Below are positions 5,587 to 27,500 of a DNA stretch of 64,000 bases, piece after piece. The notes beneath the pieces are model-generated. The model worked only from the letters and a program-made list of their open reading frames with translations, was not told the DNA's origin and ran no database searches. Made by a program: the position numbers and the translations under genes. Origin of the DNA: Pseudarthrobacter equi (GTDB lineage: Bacteria; Actinomycetota; Actinomycetes; Actinomycetales; Micrococcaceae); assembly GCF_900105535.1 (NCBI RefSeq), contig NZ_LT629779.1, positions 2,108,001 to 2,172,000 of the forward strand, written 5' to 3'. Position 1 is the stretch's first letter; the number at the start of each line of letters is the position of its first letter.

Positions 5587-5937
5587 CTACCGCCAGAGCG
5601 TCGCGATGGCGACGTTCAGCAGTGCCAGGCCGCCCACGCTGTGGGCGAGGCCGATGGAGACCGGTTCGCCCTTCTTGAATTTGCGGCTGCCGATGAAGGC
5701 CAGGACGGCAACCACCAGTGCAATGACGAGTTTGATGCCCAGCTTGGCGTAGTTGGCGTCCATGTCCAGGGCGGGGATCAGGCCCATCATCGCCACACCG
5801 GTGAGGAGCTGCAGGGCAGCACCATCGAACTGGCGCGGGTGGACGGTGGGCTTCTTCATCTGCCCGATCCAGATGCCGACGATCATGGCGGCGCCGACGA
5901 TGTGCAGGAAGACCATGACGTTGTAAACGATGTTCAT
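5587..5937 (-). CDS. small four-helix integral membrane protein
   Basis: The 116-residue protein has four predicted membrane segments (about residues 4-25, 40-58, 65-85 and 93-113). Two histidines (His12 in helix 1, in VFLHIVGAAMIVG, and His33 in the first loop) and a central Met/Gly-rich helix are visible. The pattern VxLHIVGA resembles the CopD/DUF2269 type of membrane proteins, but I cannot assign a function. The gene looks leaderless: TAGACT at 5944-5949 sits 6 nt before the ATG. A 17-bp inverted repeat at 5959-5975, nearly identical to the three between blaI and cydA, overlaps the expected -35 region. That points to repression by the BlaI-type regulator encoded at 20658-21041, placing this protein in the cytochrome bd regulon by inference. 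A hairpin follows the gene. Confidence 0.75.
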   Translation of the reverse strand: MNIVYNVMVFLHIVGAAMIVGIWIGQMKKPTVHPRQFDGAALQLLTGVAMMGLIPALDMDANYAKLGIKLVIALVVAVLAFIGSRKFKKGEPVSIGLAHSVGGLALLNVAIATLWR

Positions 5938-5958: not shown

Positions 5959-5975
5959 TTCTACGCTCTGTAGTA
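5959..5975. promoter_or_regulatory. candidate BlaI-type operator in front of the membrane protein gene
   Basis: TTCTAC-GCTCT-GTAGTA is an inverted repeat differing by one base from the consensus of the three cyd-region copies (TTCTAC-N5-GTAGAA). Even the spacer resembles copy 2 (ACTCT). It lies 9 nt upstream of the TAGACT -10 hexamer (5944-5949, minus strand), where a bound repressor would cover the -35 region. Confidence 0.6.
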
Positions 5976-19658: not shown

Positions 19659-20651
19659 TCAGCCAAGCAGGCCGGGCACCACCAGCAAGGCGGTGGGGAG
19701 CGCCAGCAACAGCACGCACGCGGTGAGGACCAGGCTCCGTGCGGCCCGCGGCAGTTCTGGCTGTGGCGAGAGCAGGCGGCTGACCCGGGACGCCGTAGTG
19801 CGGGTGGAGTCGGAGCCGCCGGTTCCGGCGGCAGCTTCAAGGCCTGACAACGCCATCCCGGGAGCGGGCTGGCCACCGCCGTGCCCGTTCGTTCCGGCAG
19901 GCGAACCGCTGGCCACGATGGCGATGGCCTTGATAAGCGTGGCTTTGCTGGCCGTTCGAAGCGCAACATCGTCGGCCAGCATCTCGATCAGTGAGCTCAC
20001 GGATTCCTGTGCCAGACGCGTGGTGGGCAGCCAGGGGAGGGCCTGGCGCCACGCAGCAAACGCCCACAGCAGCAGGTGGTGCCGCTGGCTCAGGTGGGCG
20101 TTCTCGTGGGTCAGGACGGCCTGGAGCTCTTCGGGCTCAAGGGCCGCCATGAGGCCATCGGACAGGACGGTGACAGACCGTGCTCCGCCGGGCAGGCAAT
20201 AGGCCACCGGGGAATCATGGCTGATGACCAGCGTGGCGGTGTCCTGGCCTGACGGCGACGCCAGCAGGGCCAGCAGCTCGCGGTGGCGCCGCCGCTGCCG
20301 CTGGATCCGGTAGTAGGTCAGCAGCAGGGTGAAGACAAGGTGGGCCGTCAGCAAGGCTGCTGCAGACAGTGCGAAGATGTGCCAGAACCCCAGGGCCGTG
20401 GTGGGGGCGTTGAAGAGCACCATGCCGGCCAGGGACCGGAGCCCTGCGATCAGGTTGTCTCCGATGGGCTCCAGGCCGTACACCAGCATGGCACCGATCA
20501 TCGACAGGCCACCTGCCAGGGCGATGGCCTGCCAGAGCAGCATGGCCGTAAACGGCGACCGCGCGGGCCACTGCGCGCGTGACAGCAGGATGGGTACCGG
20601 CCACGCCAGTATGATCGCCAGGACCGCCAGCAGGTATGAGGCCCAGAACAT
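19659..20651 (-). CDS. M56 family membrane metallopeptidase (BlaR1-like, no sensor domain)
   Basis: The 330-residue protein has three N-terminal membrane helices (about 4-25, 36-60 and 88-113), a cytoplasmic zinc-protease domain and one C-terminal helix (about 308-328). The zinc site is HENAH (residues 182-186), with a downstream Glu in IEMLADDVAL. M56 proteases of the BlaR1/MecR1 type cleave their cognate BlaI repressor after sensing a signal. Here the extracellular penicillin-binding sensor domain (about 250 residues in BlaR1) is missing, so the signal is unknown. The gene starts 6 bp after the BlaI-type gene stops, forming a two-gene operon. Its position facing cydABDC suggests it controls respiration genes. 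Confidence 0.88.
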   Translation of the reverse strand: MFWASYLLAVLAIILAWPVPILLSRAQWPARSPFTAMLLWQAIALAGGLSMIGAMLVYGLEPIGDNLIAGLRSLAGMVLFNAPTTALGFWHIFALSAAALLTAHLVFTLLLTYYRIQRQRRRHRELLALLASPSGQDTATLVISHDSPVAYCLPGGARSVTVLSDGLMAALEPEELQAVLTHENAHLSQRHHLLLWAFAAWRQALPWLPTTRLAQESVSSLIEMLADDVALRTASKATLIKAIAIVASGSPAGTNGHGGGQPAPGMALSGLEAAAGTGGSDSTRTTASRVSRLLSPQPELPRAARSLVLTACVLLLALPTALLVVPGLLG

Positions 20652-20657
20652 GGTGGG

Positions 20658-21041
20658 CTAGACGTGACCCAGCAGTTTGCGCAGTGTTTCGGCTTCACCT
20701 TCGGAGACGGATCCAATGAACCGGGCCAGTACGGCCTCGCGGTCCGGAGCCGACCCCAGCACCTCGTGCATGAGTTCGGCCGTGTGGTCCGCCCGGCTGG
20801 ATACCGCCTGGTAGCGGTGCGGACGGGTTCCGCGTTCCCGCTCCACAAGGCCCTTCTTTTCCAGCCTCGACAGCACCGTCAGCACGGTGGTCACCGCGAG
20901 TTCCTTGCCCTCATGGCCGGGGCCGCCCTGCGCGGCGGACGTGCGGGCCAACTGGTCCCGCAGCGTGTTGGCCGTGGCTGCTTCCTGGCCCGCCCAGAGC
21001 AGGTCCATCACTGCCCGTTCCAGTTCACCAAGACTAGCCAT
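20658..21041 (-). CDS. BlaI/MecI/CopY family transcriptional repressor
   Basis: The 127-residue winged-helix repressor shows the family pattern LGELERAVMDLLW at the start. The recognition region is LAVTTVLTVLSRLEKKGLVERERG, and a C-terminal dimerisation helix pair follows. Family members bind inverted repeats as dimers and are inactivated by cleavage through an M56 partner, which is the next gene. The ATG at 21041 has AAGGA about 8 nt upstream. Three TTCTAC-N5-GTAGAA repeats lie in the 260-bp region shared with the divergent cydA. I infer that this protein represses itself and the cytochrome bd operon, and probably the membrane-protein gene at 5587-5937. Confidence 0.92.
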   Translation of the reverse strand: MASLGELERAVMDLLWAGQEAATANTLRDQLARTSAAQGGPGHEGKELAVTTVLTVLSRLEKKGLVERERGTRPHRYQAVSSRADHTAELMHEVLGSAPDREAVLARFIGSVSEGEAETLRKLLGHV

Positions 21042-21143: not shown

Positions 21144-21160
21144 TTCTACGTTGGGTAGAA
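21144..21160. promoter_or_regulatory. BlaI-type operator, copy 1
   Basis: TTCTAC-GTTGG-GTAGAA is a perfect 6-bp inverted repeat with a 5-nt spacer, 103 bp upstream of the blaI-type start codon. It is the copy closest to the repressor gene and is inferred to mediate autoregulation. Confidence 0.65.
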
Positions 21161-21230
21161 CACGTGGCGCGTCCGGCCGTTAAGCAGCATGCTGGTAGCG
21201 GCGGTGCGTTTTCCGTCGGACAGCAAGTTG

Positions 21231-21247
21231 TTCTACACTCTGTAGAA
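21231..21247. promoter_or_regulatory. BlaI-type operator, copy 2
   Basis: TTCTAC-ACTCT-GTAGAA is a perfect inverted repeat. Its centre is 24 bp from that of copy 3, so the two sites could bind dimers cooperatively near cydA. Confidence 0.65.
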
Positions 21248-21254
21248 GTTGAAC

Positions 21255-21271
21255 TTCTACGAAACGTAGAA
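21255..21271. promoter_or_regulatory. BlaI-type operator, copy 3, over the cydA -35 region
   Basis: TTCTAC-GAAAC-GTAGAA is a perfect inverted repeat ending 13 nt before the TATAGT hexamer. It covers the place where the -35 element of the cydA promoter must lie. Confidence 0.7.
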
Positions 21272-21284
21272 GTTTGAGTTGGCC

Positions 21285-21290
21285 TATAGT
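21285..21290 (+). promoter_or_regulatory. cydA -10 element
   Basis: TATAGT lies 11 nt before the TTG start codon of cydA and fits the actinobacterial -10 pattern TAnnnT. The corresponding -35 position falls inside operator copy 3. Confidence 0.5.
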
Positions 21291-21301
21291 AGGGACCTGC
21301 G

Positions 21302-22906
21302 TTGGACGCCTTGGAAATCGCACGCTGGCAATTCGGCATCACCACCGTCTACCACTTCATGATGGTCCCGCTGACCATCGGCCTGGGCCTGGTGGTGGCC
21401 ATCATCCAGACGGCCTGGCACCGCACCGGCAAGCCCGAATATCTGCGGATGACCAAGTTCTGGGGCAAGCTCTTCCTCATCAACTTCATCATGGGCGTGG
21501 CCACCGGAATCGTCCAGGAGTTCCAGTTCGGCATGGCCTGGAGCGAATACAGCCGGTTCGTCGGCGATGTGTTCGGCGCACCCCTGGCCCTGGAAGCGCT
21601 GCTGGCCTTCTTCGTCGAGTCCACCTTCCTGGGACTGTGGATCTTTGGCTGGAAGCAGCTGAAACCCGGCATCCACTTGGCCTGCCTCTGGGTGGCGGTG
21701 ATCGGATCGGTCTTCTCCGCCTACTTCATCATCGTGGCCAACAGCTGGATGCAGCACCCGGTGGGCGTCGAAATGATCGACGGACGCCCGGTCATGACCG
21801 ATGCCTGGGCCGTCTTCACCAACAACACCGCCCTTGTTGCCGTCCCGCACACCCTCTTCGGCGCCCTTGCGGTGGCCGGCGGCTTCCTGCTCGGCATCGC
21901 CTGGTACCACCTGTGGCGCCGGCGCCGCGACGGCATCGATACCATGGGTGCCGACGGCAAGGTGGTTCCCGGCGAGTCCGCCACGATCCCCGGACGTGAC
22001 CGGGCTGACCACAGTGTCTGGATCCGTTCACTGCGCATCGGCGCCGTGGTGGCCATGATCTCCTTCGCCGGAACCGCCGTCACCGGTGACCTGCAGGGCA
22101 AGCTCATGTTCGAACAGCAGCCCATGAAGATGGCTGCAGCGGAGGCGGCCTGCCACGACGGCACCGGGTTCTCCGTGCTGAGCATCGGCAACATCGGCTC
22201 CCAGAACTGCGACGACATCGTGGCCGTCATCGAGGTCCCCGGAATCCTGTCCTTCCTGGCCAAGGGCGACTTCACCACCGAGGTGAAGGGCGTGAACACG
22301 CTGCTGCCCGAGTACAAGGAGAACTACGGCACCCACCTGCCGGACAATCCCATCTACGGTGAGCGTGCCGGCCAGGAAATTGAGTACCTGCCCGTCATGG
22401 AGGTCACCTACTGGGGCTTCCGGATGATGATCGGCTTCGGCGGACTCGCCGCGCTGGCGGCTGTGGTGGCCCTGTGGCTGACCCGGAAGGGCACCGTGCC
22501 GGAATCGCCGTGGCTCATGCGCCTTGCCATCTTCGGCATCCTCGCCCCGTTCGGCGCCAACGCTGCCGGCTGGATCTTCACTGAGATGGGCCGGCAGCCG
22601 TTCGTGGTGGCTCCCAACCCCGATCCCAGCGGCATCGACCAGGTGTTCATGTTCACGGCCGCGGCCGTCTCACCAGGGGTTTCGGCGGGCGAGCTGGTGG
22701 CGTCACTGGTCACCCTGACAGCGGTCTACGCCGTGCTGCTGGTGGTGGAGGTCAAGCTGCTGGTGAAGTACATCCGCGGCGGCGTGGTGTCCGCCATGCC
22801 CGAACTGGCCCATGTCCCCGCTGACGAGAACGAGGACCAAACGCCGGGCTCCGGCGGACCGGGCGGCGCCAAGCCCGCCGACGACGTCCTGGCCTTCGCC
22901 TACTAA
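21302..22906 (+). CDS. cydA: cytochrome bd ubiquinol/menaquinol oxidase subunit I
   Basis: The 534-residue haem-bearing subunit of cytochrome bd transfers electrons from menaquinol to oxygen in the cytoplasmic membrane. His18 (TTVYHFMMVPLTIG) matches the haem b595 ligand, His in VAVPHTLFGAL (about residue 183) the haem b558 ligand, and WGFRMM the Met ligand region. The quinol-binding loop is of the short type. The start is a TTG at 21302: homologues begin exactly at this MDALEIARWQ and AGGGA lies upstream, so weak initiation may limit expression. It is first in the cydA-cydB-cydDC operon and sits behind three candidate BlaI operators. Confidence 0.96.
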   Translation: MDALEIARWQFGITTVYHFMMVPLTIGLGLVVAIIQTAWHRTGKPEYLRMTKFWGKLFLINFIMGVATGIVQEFQFGMAWSEYSRFVGDVFGAPLALEALLAFFVESTFLGLWIFGWKQLKPGIHLACLWVAVIGSVFSAYFIIVANSWMQHPVGVEMIDGRPVMTDAWAVFTNNTALVAVPHTLFGALAVAGGFLLGIAWYHLWRRRRDGIDTMGADGKVVPGESATIPGRDRADHSVWIRSLRIGAVVAMISFAGTAVTGDLQGKLMFEQQPMKMAAAEAACHDGTGFSVLSIGNIGSQNCDDIVAVIEVPGILSFLAKGDFTTEVKGVNTLLPEYKENYGTHLPDNPIYGERAGQEIEYLPVMEVTYWGFRMMIGFGGLAALAAVVALWLTRKGTVPESPWLMRLAIFGILAPFGANAAGWIFTEMGRQPFVVAPNPDPSGIDQVFMFTAAAVSPGVSAGELVASLVTLTAVYAVLLVVEVKLLVKYIRGGVVSAMPELAHVPADENEDQTPGSGGPGGAKPADDVLAFAY

Positions 22907-22924
22907 GAGCAGAGGAATTCGACA

Positions 22925-23974
22925 ATGGAACTGCTGCCCACCATCTGGTTCATCGCCATTGCGGTGCTGTGGACCGGCTACCTCTTCCTTGAGGGCTTTG
23001 ACCTCGGCGTGGGGATGCTGATGAAGATCTTCGCGCGGAACAACACCGAACGCCGCGTCCTGCTGAACACGGTCGGCCCGGTCTGGGACGGCAACGAGGT
23101 GTGGCTGCTGACCGCCGGCGGTGCCACGTTTGCAGCCTTCCCCCTCTGGTACGCCTCCCTGTTCTCGGCCCTCTACCTGCCCCTCCTGGTGGTCCTCGTG
23201 GCCCTGATCTTCCGCGCCGTGGCCTTCGAGTACCGCGGCAAGGTGGACACGGACCGCTGGCGTGCCCGGTGGGACTGGGCCATTGCCCTGGGATGCTTTT
23301 TCGCCGCCTTCGGCGTTGGAGCCGCGCTGGCCCTGACCACTACCGGGCTGCCCCTCAATGCCAACGGCGACCGCGAAGGCGGCCCATTTGCCTGGTTCAG
23401 CGGCTACGCCGTATTGGGCGGGGCGGCCGTGGTTGGCTTCTCCCTGGTCCACGCGCTGGCCTTCCTTGCCCTGAAGACCGACGGCGAGGTCCGGCACCGT
23501 GCCCGCGCCTGGTTCGTGCGCCTGCTTCCGGTGCTGATCCTTCCCATCGCGGCCTGGGCGCTCAGCATCCAGTTCCTGGACGGCAAGCCCTGGACCTGGG
23601 CCCTCGTGGTGCTGGCGGTGGCCGCAGCCGCCACCGCCTGGATGCTGGCCCGCGCCGGTGCCGAAGGCAGGGCGTTCCTGGCGCTCGGCGCTTTCCTGGT
23701 GCTCGGCACGGCCTCCATCTTCGGCGCCGTGTTCCCCGTGGTGCTGCCCTCCACCCTGGACACCGCCTTTGACCTGACCATTGCCAACGCCTCGTCCTCG
23801 GACTACACCCTGGGGCTCATGACCATCGTGGCCGCGTTCGGCCTTCCGCTCGTGATCGCCTACCAGGCATGGACGTACTGGGTGTTCCGCCGCCGGGTCA
23901 GCACCGAGTCCATTCCGGAAGCCCACAGCTTCCTGCCTGCCATCGCCGTCAAGGCGTTCACCACCAAGGGCTGA
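22925..23974 (+). CDS. cydB: cytochrome bd oxidase subunit II
   Basis: The 349-residue protein has about eight or nine membrane helices and the CydB signatures YLFLEGFDLGVGML near the N terminus and WDGNEVWLLTAGGATFAAFP near residue 55. It forms the structural partner of CydA. The gene starts 18 bp after cydA, with AGAGGAA upstream of the ATG. Its stop (TGA at 23972-23974) is one base before the GTG of cydDC, so the three genes are tightly coupled. Confidence 0.96.
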   Translation: MELLPTIWFIAIAVLWTGYLFLEGFDLGVGMLMKIFARNNTERRVLLNTVGPVWDGNEVWLLTAGGATFAAFPLWYASLFSALYLPLLVVLVALIFRAVAFEYRGKVDTDRWRARWDWAIALGCFFAAFGVGAALALTTTGLPLNANGDREGGPFAWFSGYAVLGGAAVVGFSLVHALAFLALKTDGEVRHRARAWFVRLLPVLILPIAAWALSIQFLDGKPWTWALVVLAVAAAATAWMLARAGAEGRAFLALGAFLVLGTASIFGAVFPVVLPSTLDTAFDLTIANASSSDYTLGLMTIVAAFGLPLVIAYQAWTYWVFRRRVSTESIPEAHSFLPAIAVKAFTTKG

Positions 23975-23975
23975 C

Positions 23976-26900
23976 GTGCGGCCCATGCTCACGCCGGGAC
24001 CCGCCACCCGTTCCGCCGTCTACTGGCTCGGCCTGCTCGCAGCCCTGAAGGCACTCTCGCTCGTCCTGATGGGACAGGCGGTGGCGGCCGCCCTTGCCGG
24101 GCTGGCGGGCGGGGAAGCCGTGCACGTGGACCAGATCACGCTGGGCATGGCCGGCGTGGTCCTGCGGTCCATCACCGTGTGGGGGCAGGCTGTGGCCGCC
24201 CGGCGGGCCGCGCTGGGCATCAAGGAGGAACTGCGGGCCGGGCTCCTGGAGCGGACGCTGCGCAACGGGGTGCGGGAAACCGGCCCGGCGGACGGTGGCC
24301 TCGCCGTGCTGGCCACCCGCGGCCTGGACGCCCTGGACAGCTACTACACCCAGTTCCTGCCGGCGCTCGTAAACTGTGCCGCCGTGCCGCTGCTGCTCGG
24401 CGCCAGGATCCTCTTCGCGGACTGGGTCAGCGCAGTGGTGATCGTCCTGACCGTGCCCCTGGTGCCGCTGTTCATGGTGCTCATTGGCCGCTACACCGAG
24501 GACAACGTGCGCGAGGCCCAGGCGTCGCTGGCCAGGCTCTCGGCCCACATGCTGGAACTCGCCAAGGGACTCCCCGTTCTGGTGGGCCTGGGCCGGGCCA
24601 CGGCCCAGCGCAAAGCCCTCGAAGAGATCTCCGAGGAATACCGCTCGCGCACCATGGGGACCCTGCGCACCGCATTCCTCTCCGCCCTGGCACTGGAACT
24701 CATTGCCACCATCTCCGTGGCCGTGGTTGCCGTGTTCATCGGCGTGCGACTGGTGCACGGCGACATGCCACTCGAAGCCGGGCTGCTGGCCCTGATCCTC
24801 GCGCCGGACTGCTACCTGCCGCTTCGTGAGCTTGGCACGGCACACCACGCCAGCGACGACGGCCGGGTGGCCCTGGCCGGCGTCAATGCCGTCACGGACG
24901 CCCTCGAGGCGAAGCCGCTGCTTGCCGTGCCGGCGGGACGGCCCGGAGCGCCGCTCACCGTCACCGGCCTCACCGTGACCTACCGCGGAAGGTCCCGCGC
25001 CGCCGTCGGACCCCTGTCGTTTGAGGCGCCACAGAGCCGGATCACCGCCCTGGACGGCCCCAGCGGTGCCGGCAAGAGCACGGTACTGGGCGTCCTGGCC
25101 GGCACCATCGGGGACGGGGCCGGGACCTCCGTTACCGGGACAGTCGCCGGGTTGGACCGGAACGCCGTGGCCTGGGTGCCGCAGCATCCCGTGCTGGTGG
25201 CCGACAGAGTGCTGGACGAAGTGCTGCTCTACCTCGGCGCCAACCCCCGCAACGCCCACGACATTGCGCTGGCTGAGGAAACCGCCCGCGCCTGCCTCAC
25301 CCGGGCCGGGGCCGGCCACCTGGCCGCGAAACACCCTGCGGAGCTGAGCCCCGGCGAGCTGCGGCGCGTTGCGCTGGCACGCGGGCTGGCGAGGATTGAC
25401 GCCGGAGCAACAGTGCTCCTGCTCGATGAGCCCACTGCGCACCTGGACAGCGATTCAGCGCAGGCCGTCGAAGACGCCATCCACGGGCTGCGCGGCCAGG
25501 TCACGATCATCCTCGTTGCCCACGAGGAGCGGACCCGCGGCCTCGCCGACGTGCTGGTGCCGGTTGGCGGCCGTGCCACGGCGCCGGAACCTTCGAACCA
25601 GCCGGAGACCTTGCCGGCCAGGGCATCTTCCGCCGGCCTTCCTGCCGCGATTTCAGCGGCGCCGCCCGCGGCCACGCGGCCCACCACGAACCCGCGCGCC
25701 GCAAACCCGCGCGCTGACGACGCCAAGAACGGAACCGCGGGCCGCTTCGGCGCAGGCGCCATGGGACTCCTGGCTCCGTTACTGGCGCCGGTGCGGGGTA
25801 AATTCGCCGCGGCCGCCATCGTGGGCACTTTCGCAGCGCTCTTCGCGGTGGCGTTGTCCGGGTTGTCCGGCTGGCTGATCATCCGAGCCAGCGAGCAGCC
25901 ACCCATCCTCTACCTGCTGACCGCCATCGTTGGCGTACGCTTCTTCGGCATCGGCCGGGCAGTGCTCCGGTACTGGGAACGGCTGCTGCTGCACGATGCC
26001 GTGTTCGCCGCGCTGACCAGGCTCCGGGGACGGCTGTGGGCGTCACTGAGCCGCCGGGCCCTGGCCCTGCGCCGCCTCCTCCAGGGCGGGAACGTGCTGG
26101 GCACCGTCATCGACGACGTCGACACCGTCCGGGACCTCCTGCCCCGGGTGGTGCTGCCCCCCGTCACGGCCGTGGCGGTCGCCGTGTTGGCATTGGGAAC
26201 CACCTGGCTGGTGGTCCCGCCGGCGCTCCCGGCGGTCATCGCCGCCGCCGCGGCCAGCCTGGTGCTGGCGCCCGCGCTTGCGCTCTGGGGCGACCGGAAG
26301 TCGGCGACGGCGGAGCAAGTACTGCGCTCCGGTGTGCTGCGCCGCATCTCGGCGGCCCTGGATGCCCGGGCGGAGGTGTCCGCCAACGGTGTGGCACCTC
26401 GGGTGCTGGCCGGACTCCGCGGCGAAGACCGTAAGGCAACTGGCGCCTCCCAGCGGTCGGCCTGGGCCGAGGGCCTGGGCCATGCGGTCACCGCTGCCGC
26501 GTGCGGAGCCGCAGCGCTCGCCAGCGCGTGGCTGGCCGCCCCCGCCGTCCTGGACGGACGGATCGAGCCGGCTATTGCCGCCGTCGTGGTCCTGCTGCTG
26601 CTTGCCCTCGTGGAACCCTACTCGGCGATGACGACGGCGGTGCGCCAGTTCCCGGCCCTGCGCGCGGTGCTGCAGCGCGTGGCATCGTCCGGGGCGCTGG
26701 ATGCGTCCAGCGATGCCCAGGAAGACGACGGCGGGGCCACAGACGGGCTGCAGCCGGTGCCGGCGCGAGAGGGCGGCGTTCCCGGGCTGGAGCTGGCGAA
26801 CCTCGCGGCGGCGTGGCCCGGCAGCGCACCGGTCTTCACCGGGCTCAATGCCGTTGCCGGACCCGGGCATTGGCTGGCCGTCACAGGCCCGTCCGGCTCG

Positions 26901-27500
26901 GGGAAATCGACGCTGCTCTCGGTCCTGCTGGGATTCCTGCCGGCTGCCGCCGGAAGTGTCCGGGTGTCCGGAGGGGTCGCCTGGTGCCCCCAGGAGGCCC
27001 ACCTTTTCGACTCCACCATCCGAGGCAACCTCCTTCTGGGGCGGACCGCGGCGGAACCCGACCGGCGGGGACACGACACCCGGGAACAGGGCACCCGGGG
27101 ACAGGACAATCCGGGGGAGAGCGCAACCGAACAGGACATGGCAGCGGTGATTGCCGCCGTTGGCCTCGCCGGGCTGATGGAACGGCTGCCCGCGGGACTG
27201 GACACGCGGATCGGTCCCGGTGGTGCTTTCCTCAGTGGCGGCGAACGCCAGCGCCTCGCGGTGGCCCGCACCCTGATGACCGGTGCCGAGGTGATCCTTC
27301 TGGACGAACCCACCGCGCACCTGGATGCCGAATCGGCCAGCGCTATGCTGCACGACCTGAGGGCCGGCCTGCGGGACCGGACCGTGGTGCTGGTTACCCA
27401 CCACGCCGCCGATATCCAGGCCGGCGACGTTCGGTTGGCGCTTGTGCCGGCCGCGGAACTTCGGGAGGCCGGCCGGGCAGCGGCGGGGCTGCGAGCCTGA
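23976..27500 (+). CDS. cydDC: fused CydD-CydC thiol ABC exporter
   Basis: The 1174-residue protein contains two complete ABC exporter halves in one frame. The CydD half (about 1-540) has Walker A GPSGAGKST, signature LSPGELRRVALARG and Walker B VLLLDEPTAHLD. After an Ala/Pro-rich linker (about 540-590), the CydC half has a second membrane domain, Walker A GPSGSGKST, signature LSGGERQRLAVART and Walker B VILLDEPTAHLD. In E. coli the separate CydD and CydC proteins form a heterodimer that exports cysteine and glutathione and is needed for cytochrome bd assembly. The fusion replaces that dimer by one chain. A short repetitive insert rich in Asp, Arg, Gln and Gly (about residues 1025-1050) lies between the second Walker A and its signature. 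GTG at 23976 or ATG at 23985 could be the start. Confidence 0.94.
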   Translation: MRPMLTPGPATRSAVYWLGLLAALKALSLVLMGQAVAAALAGLAGGEAVHVDQITLGMAGVVLRSITVWGQAVAARRAALGIKEELRAGLLERTLRNGVRETGPADGGLAVLATRGLDALDSYYTQFLPALVNCAAVPLLLGARILFADWVSAVVIVLTVPLVPLFMVLIGRYTEDNVREAQASLARLSAHMLELAKGLPVLVGLGRATAQRKALEEISEEYRSRTMGTLRTAFLSALALELIATISVAVVAVFIGVRLVHGDMPLEAGLLALILAPDCYLPLRELGTAHHASDDGRVALAGVNAVTDALEAKPLLAVPAGRPGAPLTVTGLTVTYRGRSRAAVGPLSFEAPQSRITALDGPSGAGKSTVLGVLAGTIGDGAGTSVTGTVAGLDRNAVAWVPQHPVLVADRVLDEVLLYLGANPRNAHDIALAEETARACLTRAGAGHLAAKHPAELSPGELRRVALARGLARIDAGATVLLLDEPTAHLDSDSAQAVEDAIHGLRGQVTIILVAHEERTRGLADVLVPVGGRATAPEPSNQPETLPARASSAGLPAAISAAPPAATRPTTNPRAANPRADDAKNGTAGRFGAGAMGLLAPLLAPVRGKFAAAAIVGTFAALFAVALSGLSGWLIIRASEQPPILYLLTAIVGVRFFGIGRAVLRYWERLLLHDAVFAALTRLRGRLWASLSRRALALRRLLQGGNVLGTVIDDVDTVRDLLPRVVLPPVTAVAVAVLALGTTWLVVPPALPAVIAAAAASLVLAPALALWGDRKSATAEQVLRSGVLRRISAALDARAEVSANGVAPRVLAGLRGEDRKATGASQRSAWAEGLGHAVTAAACGAAALASAWLAAPAVLDGRIEPAIAAVVVLLLLALVEPYSAMTTAVRQFPALRAVLQRVASSGALDASSDAQEDDGGATDGLQPVPAREGGVPGLELANLAAAWPGSAPVFTGLNAVAGPGHWLAVTGPSGSGKSTLLSVLLGFLPAAAGSVRVSGGVAWCPQEAHLFDSTIRGNLLLGRTAAEPDRRGHDTREQGTRGQDNPGESATEQDMAAVIAAVGLAGLMERLPAGLDTRIGPGGAFLSGGERQRLAVARTLMTGAEVILLDEPTAHLDAESASAMLHDLRAGLRDRTVVLVTHHAADIQAGDVRLALVPAAELREAGRAAAGLRA

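Follow-up and report, generated by a model that had tools for sequence, protein, structure and literature searches.

What does a BlaI-type repressor control when its gene, together with that of a membrane metalloprotease, is divergent from a cytochrome bd oxidase operon? The question is raised by a locus of Pseudarthrobacter equi, which lies in a 64,000-nt stretch of the 4.46-Mb single contig of the genome (this whole stretch is called the window below; Table 1). The blaI product belongs to the BlaI/MecI/CopY family (PF03965), with a Penicillinase_R match above the cut-off over residues 4-124, and the match to 2g9w (M. tuberculosis Rv1846c) over residues 3-125 identifies it as a close relative of that protein. 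Its PF03965 match is the sole full-length one of the genome, another being partial, and 100% identical proteins occur in P. chlorophenolicus Mor30.16, Arthrobacter sp. Leaf137, and P. enclensis CC222. None of its 127 residues is a cysteine, which ruled out that it is the copper repressor CopY. The adjacent metalloprotease, with its HExxH motif at residue 182, matches Pfam M48 at 1.2e-10 (42 bits, above the cut-off) and Pfam M56 at 2e-5 (24.4 bits, under the cut-off of 31), so that this BlaR-like protein scores higher as Peptidase_M48 than as M56. Pfam returned only these M48/M56 matches for the 330-aa protein and no beta-lactam sensor domain. Both genes are divergent from cydA-cydB-cydDC (21302-27500, + strand), where cydDC was so named because of its operon position.

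Table 1. Features of the window, and predicted targets of exact dyads elsewhere in the P. equi genome.
Feature	Position	Strand	Basis or remark
116-aa membrane protein, probable regulon member	5587-5937	-	54-72% identical to proteins behind exact dyads (L313, L354, L359)
One-mismatch dyad (TTCTACGCTCTGTAGTA), possible further operator	5959-5975	.	Exact dyads of relatives
M56/M48-like membrane metalloprotease, 330 aa, directly after blaI	19659-20651	-	Pfam, HExxH, hydropathy
blaI, 127-aa BlaI/MecI-type repressor	20658-21041	-	Pfam Penicillinase_R 9.9e-21; PDB 2g9w 3.3e-15
Dyad 1 (TTCTACGTTGGGTAGAA), blaI-proximal predicted operator	21144-21160	.	Exact match; overlaps putative blaI -35 (from sequence)
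Dyad 2 (TTCTACACTCTGTAGAA), cydA predicted operator, upstream copy	21231-21247	.	Exact match; arm mean 0.999
Dyad 3 (TTCTACGAAACGTAGAA), cydA predicted operator, over putative -35	21255-21271	.	Exact match; arm mean 1.0
cydA, cytochrome bd oxidase subunit I, TTG start	21302-22906	+	Pfam 2.7e-153
cydB, cytochrome bd oxidase subunit II	22925-23974	+	Pfam 5.9e-100
cydDC-like fused ABC exporter, 1174 aa	23976-27500	+	Two ABC_tran stretches and ABC_membrane domain
hemQ target			Then ferrochelatase, HEM4/hemD, ALAD/hemB, further on hemL-like aminotransferase
ccs target (cytochrome c biogenesis)			Histidine-phosphatase gene, then resA-, ccdA-, resB-, ccsB-like genes
Flavohaemoglobin (hmp) target			Adjoins nsrR-like gene
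PNPOx-family protein target			
122-aa membrane protein target			No Pfam match

The first-pass annotation had described three identical 17-bp inverted repeats between blaI and cydA. A pattern scan confirmed an exact TTCTAC-N5-GTAGAA at each of the three claimed starts (21144, 21231, and 21255), all within the intergenic region, as well as the 24-bp spacing of dyads 2 and 3 (centres at 21239 and 21263). The identity is that of the 6-bp arms, whereas the 5-bp spacers differ (GTTGG, ACTCT, and GAAAC). When up to two mismatches are allowed, the window contains 5 matches, compared with 0.25 expected from shuffles. The whole genome has 8 exact dyads, compared with 1 for a reversed-pattern control; three of the 8 are those at blaI/cydA and five lie ahead of other genes. 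A sigma-70 consensus scan of the blaI-cydA region found no promoter, and the positions of the dyads relative to -35 and -10 elements were therefore judged by eye. The putative -10 elements read in this way are TAAATT for blaI (21125-21120) and TATAGT for cydA (21285-21290). The latter places dyad 3 on the cydA -35, so that the earlier statement that this copy covers the -35 region fits the element read by eye, but lacks the backing of the consensus scan.

The conservation of the dyads was analyzed in an alignment of 80 regions from the genus, comprising the window and 79 of 80 named intergenic regions (one was dropped for length). No fewer than 35 of the 36 arm columns are invariant, and the arm columns of dyad 1 have a mean conservation of 1.0. 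The corresponding means are 0.73 for the spacers and 0.63 for the other 210 intergenic columns, and the best window of the same shape elsewhere reaches 0.83. The distance between dyads 2 and 3 is 24 bp in 49 of the 80 regions and 23-26 bp in 79. As judged from this alignment, the dyad arms are under selection. Among 142 blaI loci, a set that includes repeats of the P. equi locus and genus genomes listed under two names, three exact dyads were found in 126, two in 14, and one in 2 loci (L056 and L061), the last being blaI genes without an adjoining cydA. A second set consisted of another 72 loci, taken from the best hits in other genera of the family. Here, 64 of the 65 linked blaI-cydA regions have at least one exact dyad; the exception (L239, genome G149) has a one-mismatch site only. 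No exact dyad was found within 450 bp upstream of eight paralogous blaI genes of the family (L241-L248; 32-37% identity).

If the dyads are operators of BlaI, they should accompany the repressor rather than the gene neighbourhood. In six genomes, all draft assemblies (G064, G094, G101, G125, G168, and G204), cydA lies on another contig than blaI, and 7 of 7 such cydA loci carry at least two exact dyads; two of these loci belong to G204, which has cydA in duplicate, and those of G101 and G125 encode a divergent CydA (42% identical). Each of the two G204 copies (L249 and L258) has an exact-dyad pair of its own, and the stretch read there contains no blaI. blaI genes without an adjoining cydA, some of them from genomes in which no cydA was found, have kept an exact dyad in 8 of 9 loci, and the ninth (L226) has a one-mismatch dyad. 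A BlaI match is missing in 18 of 149 family genomes, and in these BlaI-less genomes none of 12 cydA loci (one cydA match is a fragment) has a dyad within two mismatches in up to 450 bp upstream. Within genus g6, one exact dyad was found in each of the two genomes with BlaI and none in the five that lack it. Altogether, the 127 genomes with a close BlaI contain 684 exact dyads versus 59 reversed patterns (125 of the 127 are above the control), and the 18 BlaI-less genomes contain 2 versus 3; the Mann-Whitney rank test on these counts ignores phylogeny, and the BlaI-less genomes occur in three genera (g3, g6, and g14). The two exact sites of the BlaI-less genomes (L276 and L277) precede no recognised target. 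The only BlaI in each of four genomes of genus g11 (G070, G100, G124, and G147) is distant (about 36% identical); nevertheless, cydA is preceded by one exact TTC dyad in all four. Their total is 4 exact dyads versus 1 reversed pattern.

Inverted repeats could form hairpins, and the dyads might then be structural repeats, or products of chance, that have no regulatory meaning. The probability of this reading is negligible, because the arms are conserved whereas the spacers drift, single sites stand at other promoters, and the dyads track with blaI; conservation and tracking together rule out a chance origin.

Further evidence comes from the wider class. A blaI gene beside a cydA match was also found in families f4, f6, f25, f27, f34, f36, f42, and f48, with dyads that are mostly of the TTCTAC-, TCCTAC-, or TACTAC-N5 type; some of the f25 cydA matches are only 28-33% identical, and one f6 blaI-cydA pair (L378) has no recognisable dyad. 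Family f11 was taken as mycobacterium-like because its BlaI resembles the M. tuberculosis protein. Six f11 genomes that were read have no cydA in the stretch around blaI. In f11 genomes of genera g114 and g118, TACTAC-N5-GTAGTA precedes cydA, and the stretch searched before blaI contains no such motif. In the mycobacterium-like genus g49, 14 genomes were searched. All 13 of them that have cydA carry TACTAC-N5-GTCGTA at 26-43 bp upstream of this gene, and the motif also precedes blaI in each of the 4 genomes that were read there. Family f24 has a TACTAC-type dyad before cydA in one of two genomes. We tabulated 64 blaI loci, which are not independent of each other, 46 with a listed motif and 18 without, and compared the motifs with the recognition helix of BlaI. 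The 24 TTC-type operators pair with a TTx-L (22) or TTx-H (2) helix, all 11 TAC operators with TTx-M, the 10 TCC...GAA operators with Leu, and a single TCC...GTA operator with Met. Across these loci, the half-site of the predicted operator co-varies with the recognition helix. An exception to this pairing is the distant BlaI of g11, which has Met in the recognition helix (two were read) despite the TTC dyad.

These comparisons bear on the idea that some other conserved regulator, such as a sensor of redox state or NO, occupies the dyads, with blaI being a mere neighbour. The retention of the cydA dyad in g11, with only a distant BlaI, would agree with such a regulator. However, genomes of g3, g6, and g14 that have cydA and no BlaI match lack the dyad, blaI genes without a neighbouring cydA keep their own, and a bystander would not explain why the operator sequence follows the BlaI helix. 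We consider this idea improbable. Control of cydA by the adjacent BlaI is thus strongly supported by comparative evidence, that is, by the conservation of the arms, the dyads at unlinked cydA genes, the loss of the dyad in genomes without BlaI, and the co-variation with the helix.

The five other exact sites of the P. equi genome lie 10-84 bp before the start of a gene reading away from the site (targets in Table 1); as each stands just ahead of a gene start, chance was rejected as their origin. The same five gene families follow all 33 non-cyd exact sites in eight genomes of the genus: hemQ, ccs, and the 122-aa protein have a site in 8/8 genomes, flavohaemoglobin in 6/8, and the PNPOx protein in 3/8. 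The 122-aa membrane protein (L263, 4727-5095) recurs in all eight genus genomes and behind 8 sites in other genera. Thus, according to the site comparison, the same dyad marks a haem/cytochrome/NO regulon beyond cydA. Immediately behind the exact sites of the P. equi genome, no gene matches a beta-lactamase family or belongs to the ATP synthase operon. A pair that responds to beta-lactams and is linked to cyd only incidentally would be suggested by the family name and by the control of blaC by M. tuberculosis BlaI, reported in a 2017 eLife paper. In contrast, the protease has no sensor domain by Pfam, and beta-lactamase control was ruled out because no such gene stands behind the exact sites, which makes a beta-lactam-responsive pair very improbable. 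The first-pass annotation had proposed that a BlaI/M56 switch regulates a terminal oxidase rather than beta-lactamase. The comparative support for cydA control agrees with this proposal, but since the dyad marks a wider haem/cytochrome/NO regulon, restricting it to the terminal oxidase is too narrow.

At the flavohaemoglobin promoter (L002 1416-1572, C1:1155543), the BlaI dyad is followed by a palindrome that we take to be an NsrR-like motif, and an nsrR-like gene adjoins. BlaI and an NsrR-like regulator may share this promoter, and the possibility that several regulators share promoters is a point in favour of a different protein at the dyads. Upstream of hemQ and ccs, 39-47 bp separate the dyad from the start codon in the genus (52 bp in one genome), and, as judged by eye, the dyads seem to precede the likely -35 element of a leaderless promoter. 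Therefore, activation or a roadblock is possible at these two operons, as the position does not by itself agree with simple repression. It is accordingly conceivable, though unlikely, that BlaI binds the dyads as an activator or dual regulator of the respiration genes, with which the position before hemQ and ccs would be compatible. Against it, the likely -35 elements of cydA and blaI, again as read by eye, are overlapped by dyads 3 and 1, respectively, and mycobacterial BlaI was reported as a repressor of Rv1303 of the ATP synthase operon in a 2025 paper (PMC12565901).

Outside the genus, we read 61 non-cyd, non-blaI sites in 12 genomes with BlaI, nine of which had been picked mostly for high counts; most sites of G143 and one of G123 were left out. 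Part of the targets were assigned by similarity to a scanned relative, and the choice of target at divergent sites is uncertain. With this proviso, 29 of the 61 sites precede recognised haem, cytochrome, oxidase-assembly, copper, NO, or succinate dehydrogenase genes: hemQ (10), ccs/resA (4; 52-66% identical to the P. equi ResA), flavohaemoglobin (3), hemA/hemE, COX2, CopC, and CopD (2 each), and SURF1, UbiA/ctaB, cytochrome c, and SdhC (one each). Some site-gene distances are long (242 bp for SdhC, 236 bp for one CopD, and 191 bp for one COX2). Another 19 sites precede recurring families, namely the 122-aa protein (8), a 115-117-aa membrane protein (5), an ABC ATPase (4, in three cases divergent from a winged-helix regulator), and PNPOx (2). 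Other named genes follow five sites (isocitrate lyase, lactate dehydrogenase, CarD, DJC28, and Usp), and the remaining 8 are without an assigned target. In G068, a dyad (L341) precedes a 155-aa protein that looks Rv1303-like by eye and has no Pfam match. The genomes of genus g12 (G071, G101, G125, G148, and G166) have 9-15 exact dyads each, although three of the five have no cydA match and two only a divergent CydA; in G071, the genes marked by the sites are those for aa3 oxidase, copper, and cytochrome c, which make up a larger regulon than that of the P. equi genus.

Are imperfect dyads also operators? At up to one mismatch, the P. equi genome has 17 sites compared with 9 for the reversed pattern; the one-mismatch sites alone, 9 versus 8, show no excess, and at up to two mismatches 91 sites stand against 183. 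Exact sites at gene starts and loose counts below the control indicate that exact and loose matches behave differently. Seven of the nine one-mismatch sites were read (L412-L418), and two look regulon-like. One is the dyad at 5959 of the window, 21 bp before the gene of the 116-aa membrane protein, relatives of which have exact dyads in five loci of three other genera. The other, L418, precedes an ABC ATPase gene; its product shares 51-67% identity with dyad targets from four other genera. As one-mismatch sites show no excess as a group, the cases for these two rest on the orthologues. Of the others, two lie ahead of ORFs, L413 at 52 bp from an unrelated one of 116 aa and L412 at about 195 bp from one of 389 aa, and L414, L415, and L417 are inside ORFs.

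Taken together, we propose, with a probability of about 0.87, that the dyads are operators of the adjacent BlaI, which would repress blaI-M56 and cydABDC and act in trans on the haem/cytochrome regulon. A BlaI dimer would occupy each TTCTAC-N5-GTAGAA dyad. From dyad 1, over the blaI promoter, it would shut off blaI-M56 in an autoregulatory manner, and from dyads 2 and 3, over the cydABDC promoter, it would shut off cydA. In trans, the same BlaI would act on the hemQ and ccs/res operons, the flavohaemoglobin gene, and related genes. The co-encoded M56-type protease, activated by a signal from the membrane or from respiration, would remove BlaI whenever the state of the membrane or of respiration calls for cytochrome bd and new haem proteins. 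Binding, repression, and proteolysis by the M56-like protein, as well as its signal, are what we infer from the sequences.

To a broader reading we give even odds. Across the Actinomycetes, the BlaI/M56 pair might be primarily a respiratory switch, which would sense the respiratory chain or the haem/copper supply at the membrane and set cytochrome bd, the assembly of haem, cytochrome c, and aa3 oxidase, and the detoxification of NO. In M. tuberculosis, the control of beta-lactamase would then represent a side branch, and the one-residue Leu/Met change in the recognition helix would switch the operator between TTCTAC and TACTAC. At the P. equi locus itself, a family named for antibiotic resistance appears as the controller of a respiration regulon. 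The locus also provides a free-living soil system (Pseudarthrobacter/Arthrobacter), with a defined operator and named targets, in which the signal of BlaR-type proteases that have no beta-lactam sensor can be sought.

Parts of this picture have precedents. The first-pass annotation knew of no description of the arrangement. However, the 2017 eLife paper states, citing Sala 2009, that M. tuberculosis BlaI binds the cytochrome bd promoter, so that the link between BlaI and cyd itself is not new; as for the cis-linked arrangement, the open-access literature, which leaves most subscription papers outside, contained no description of a cis-linked blaI-M56/cydABDC in relatives of Arthrobacter. The TTCTAC-N5-GTAGAA operator and a haem/cytochrome regulon of BlaI were likewise not found in that literature.

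How does the locus compare with known systems? CopY/CopR belong to the same superfamily, and BlaI has a weak CopY_TcrY match (2e-5, 24.8 bits versus a cut-off of 121.95). BlaI differs from them in having no C-terminal Cys-X-Cys and a different operator; some CopC/CopD genes are, however, dyad targets in other genera. Staphylococcal BlaI/MecI bind dyad operators at divergent promoters. Together with BlaR1/MecR1, they resemble the pair described here in the repressor family and in the adjacent membrane metalloprotease. In contrast to BlaR1/MecR1, no beta-lactam sensor was found here, and no beta-lactamase is among the targets of the exact sites. The TAC...GTA core has an N5 spacing, one base wider than the N4 core of TACANNTGTA, which PMC7253601 gives as the classical operator of the wider BlaI family. 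The closest solved relative of BlaI is that of M. tuberculosis (Rv1846c, PDB 2G9W, 3.3e-15), which is accompanied by BlaR (Rv1845c). According to the eLife paper, M. tuberculosis BlaI is also present at the ATP synthase and blaC promoters, and its BlaR has no beta-lactam sensor. The 2025 paper (PMC12565901) describes repression of Rv1303 in the ATP synthase operon and of the non-respiratory cell-division gene ftsQ. Unlike in M. tuberculosis, the predicted targets here are haem, cytochrome c, and NO genes, none is a recognised beta-lactamase, and ftsQ was not seen among the sites. The blaI gene is divergent from cydA, whereas that of the mycobacterium-like family f11 has no cydA nearby (six genomes), and the predicted operator is TTCTAC-N5-GTAGAA, whereas that of g49 cydA is TACTAC-N5-GTCGTA. 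The likeness to M. tuberculosis lies in the dyads at the cytochrome bd promoter, with a sister motif before cydA in g49, and the binding reported for mycobacterial BlaI at this promoter gains sequence support from the mycobacterium-like genomes.
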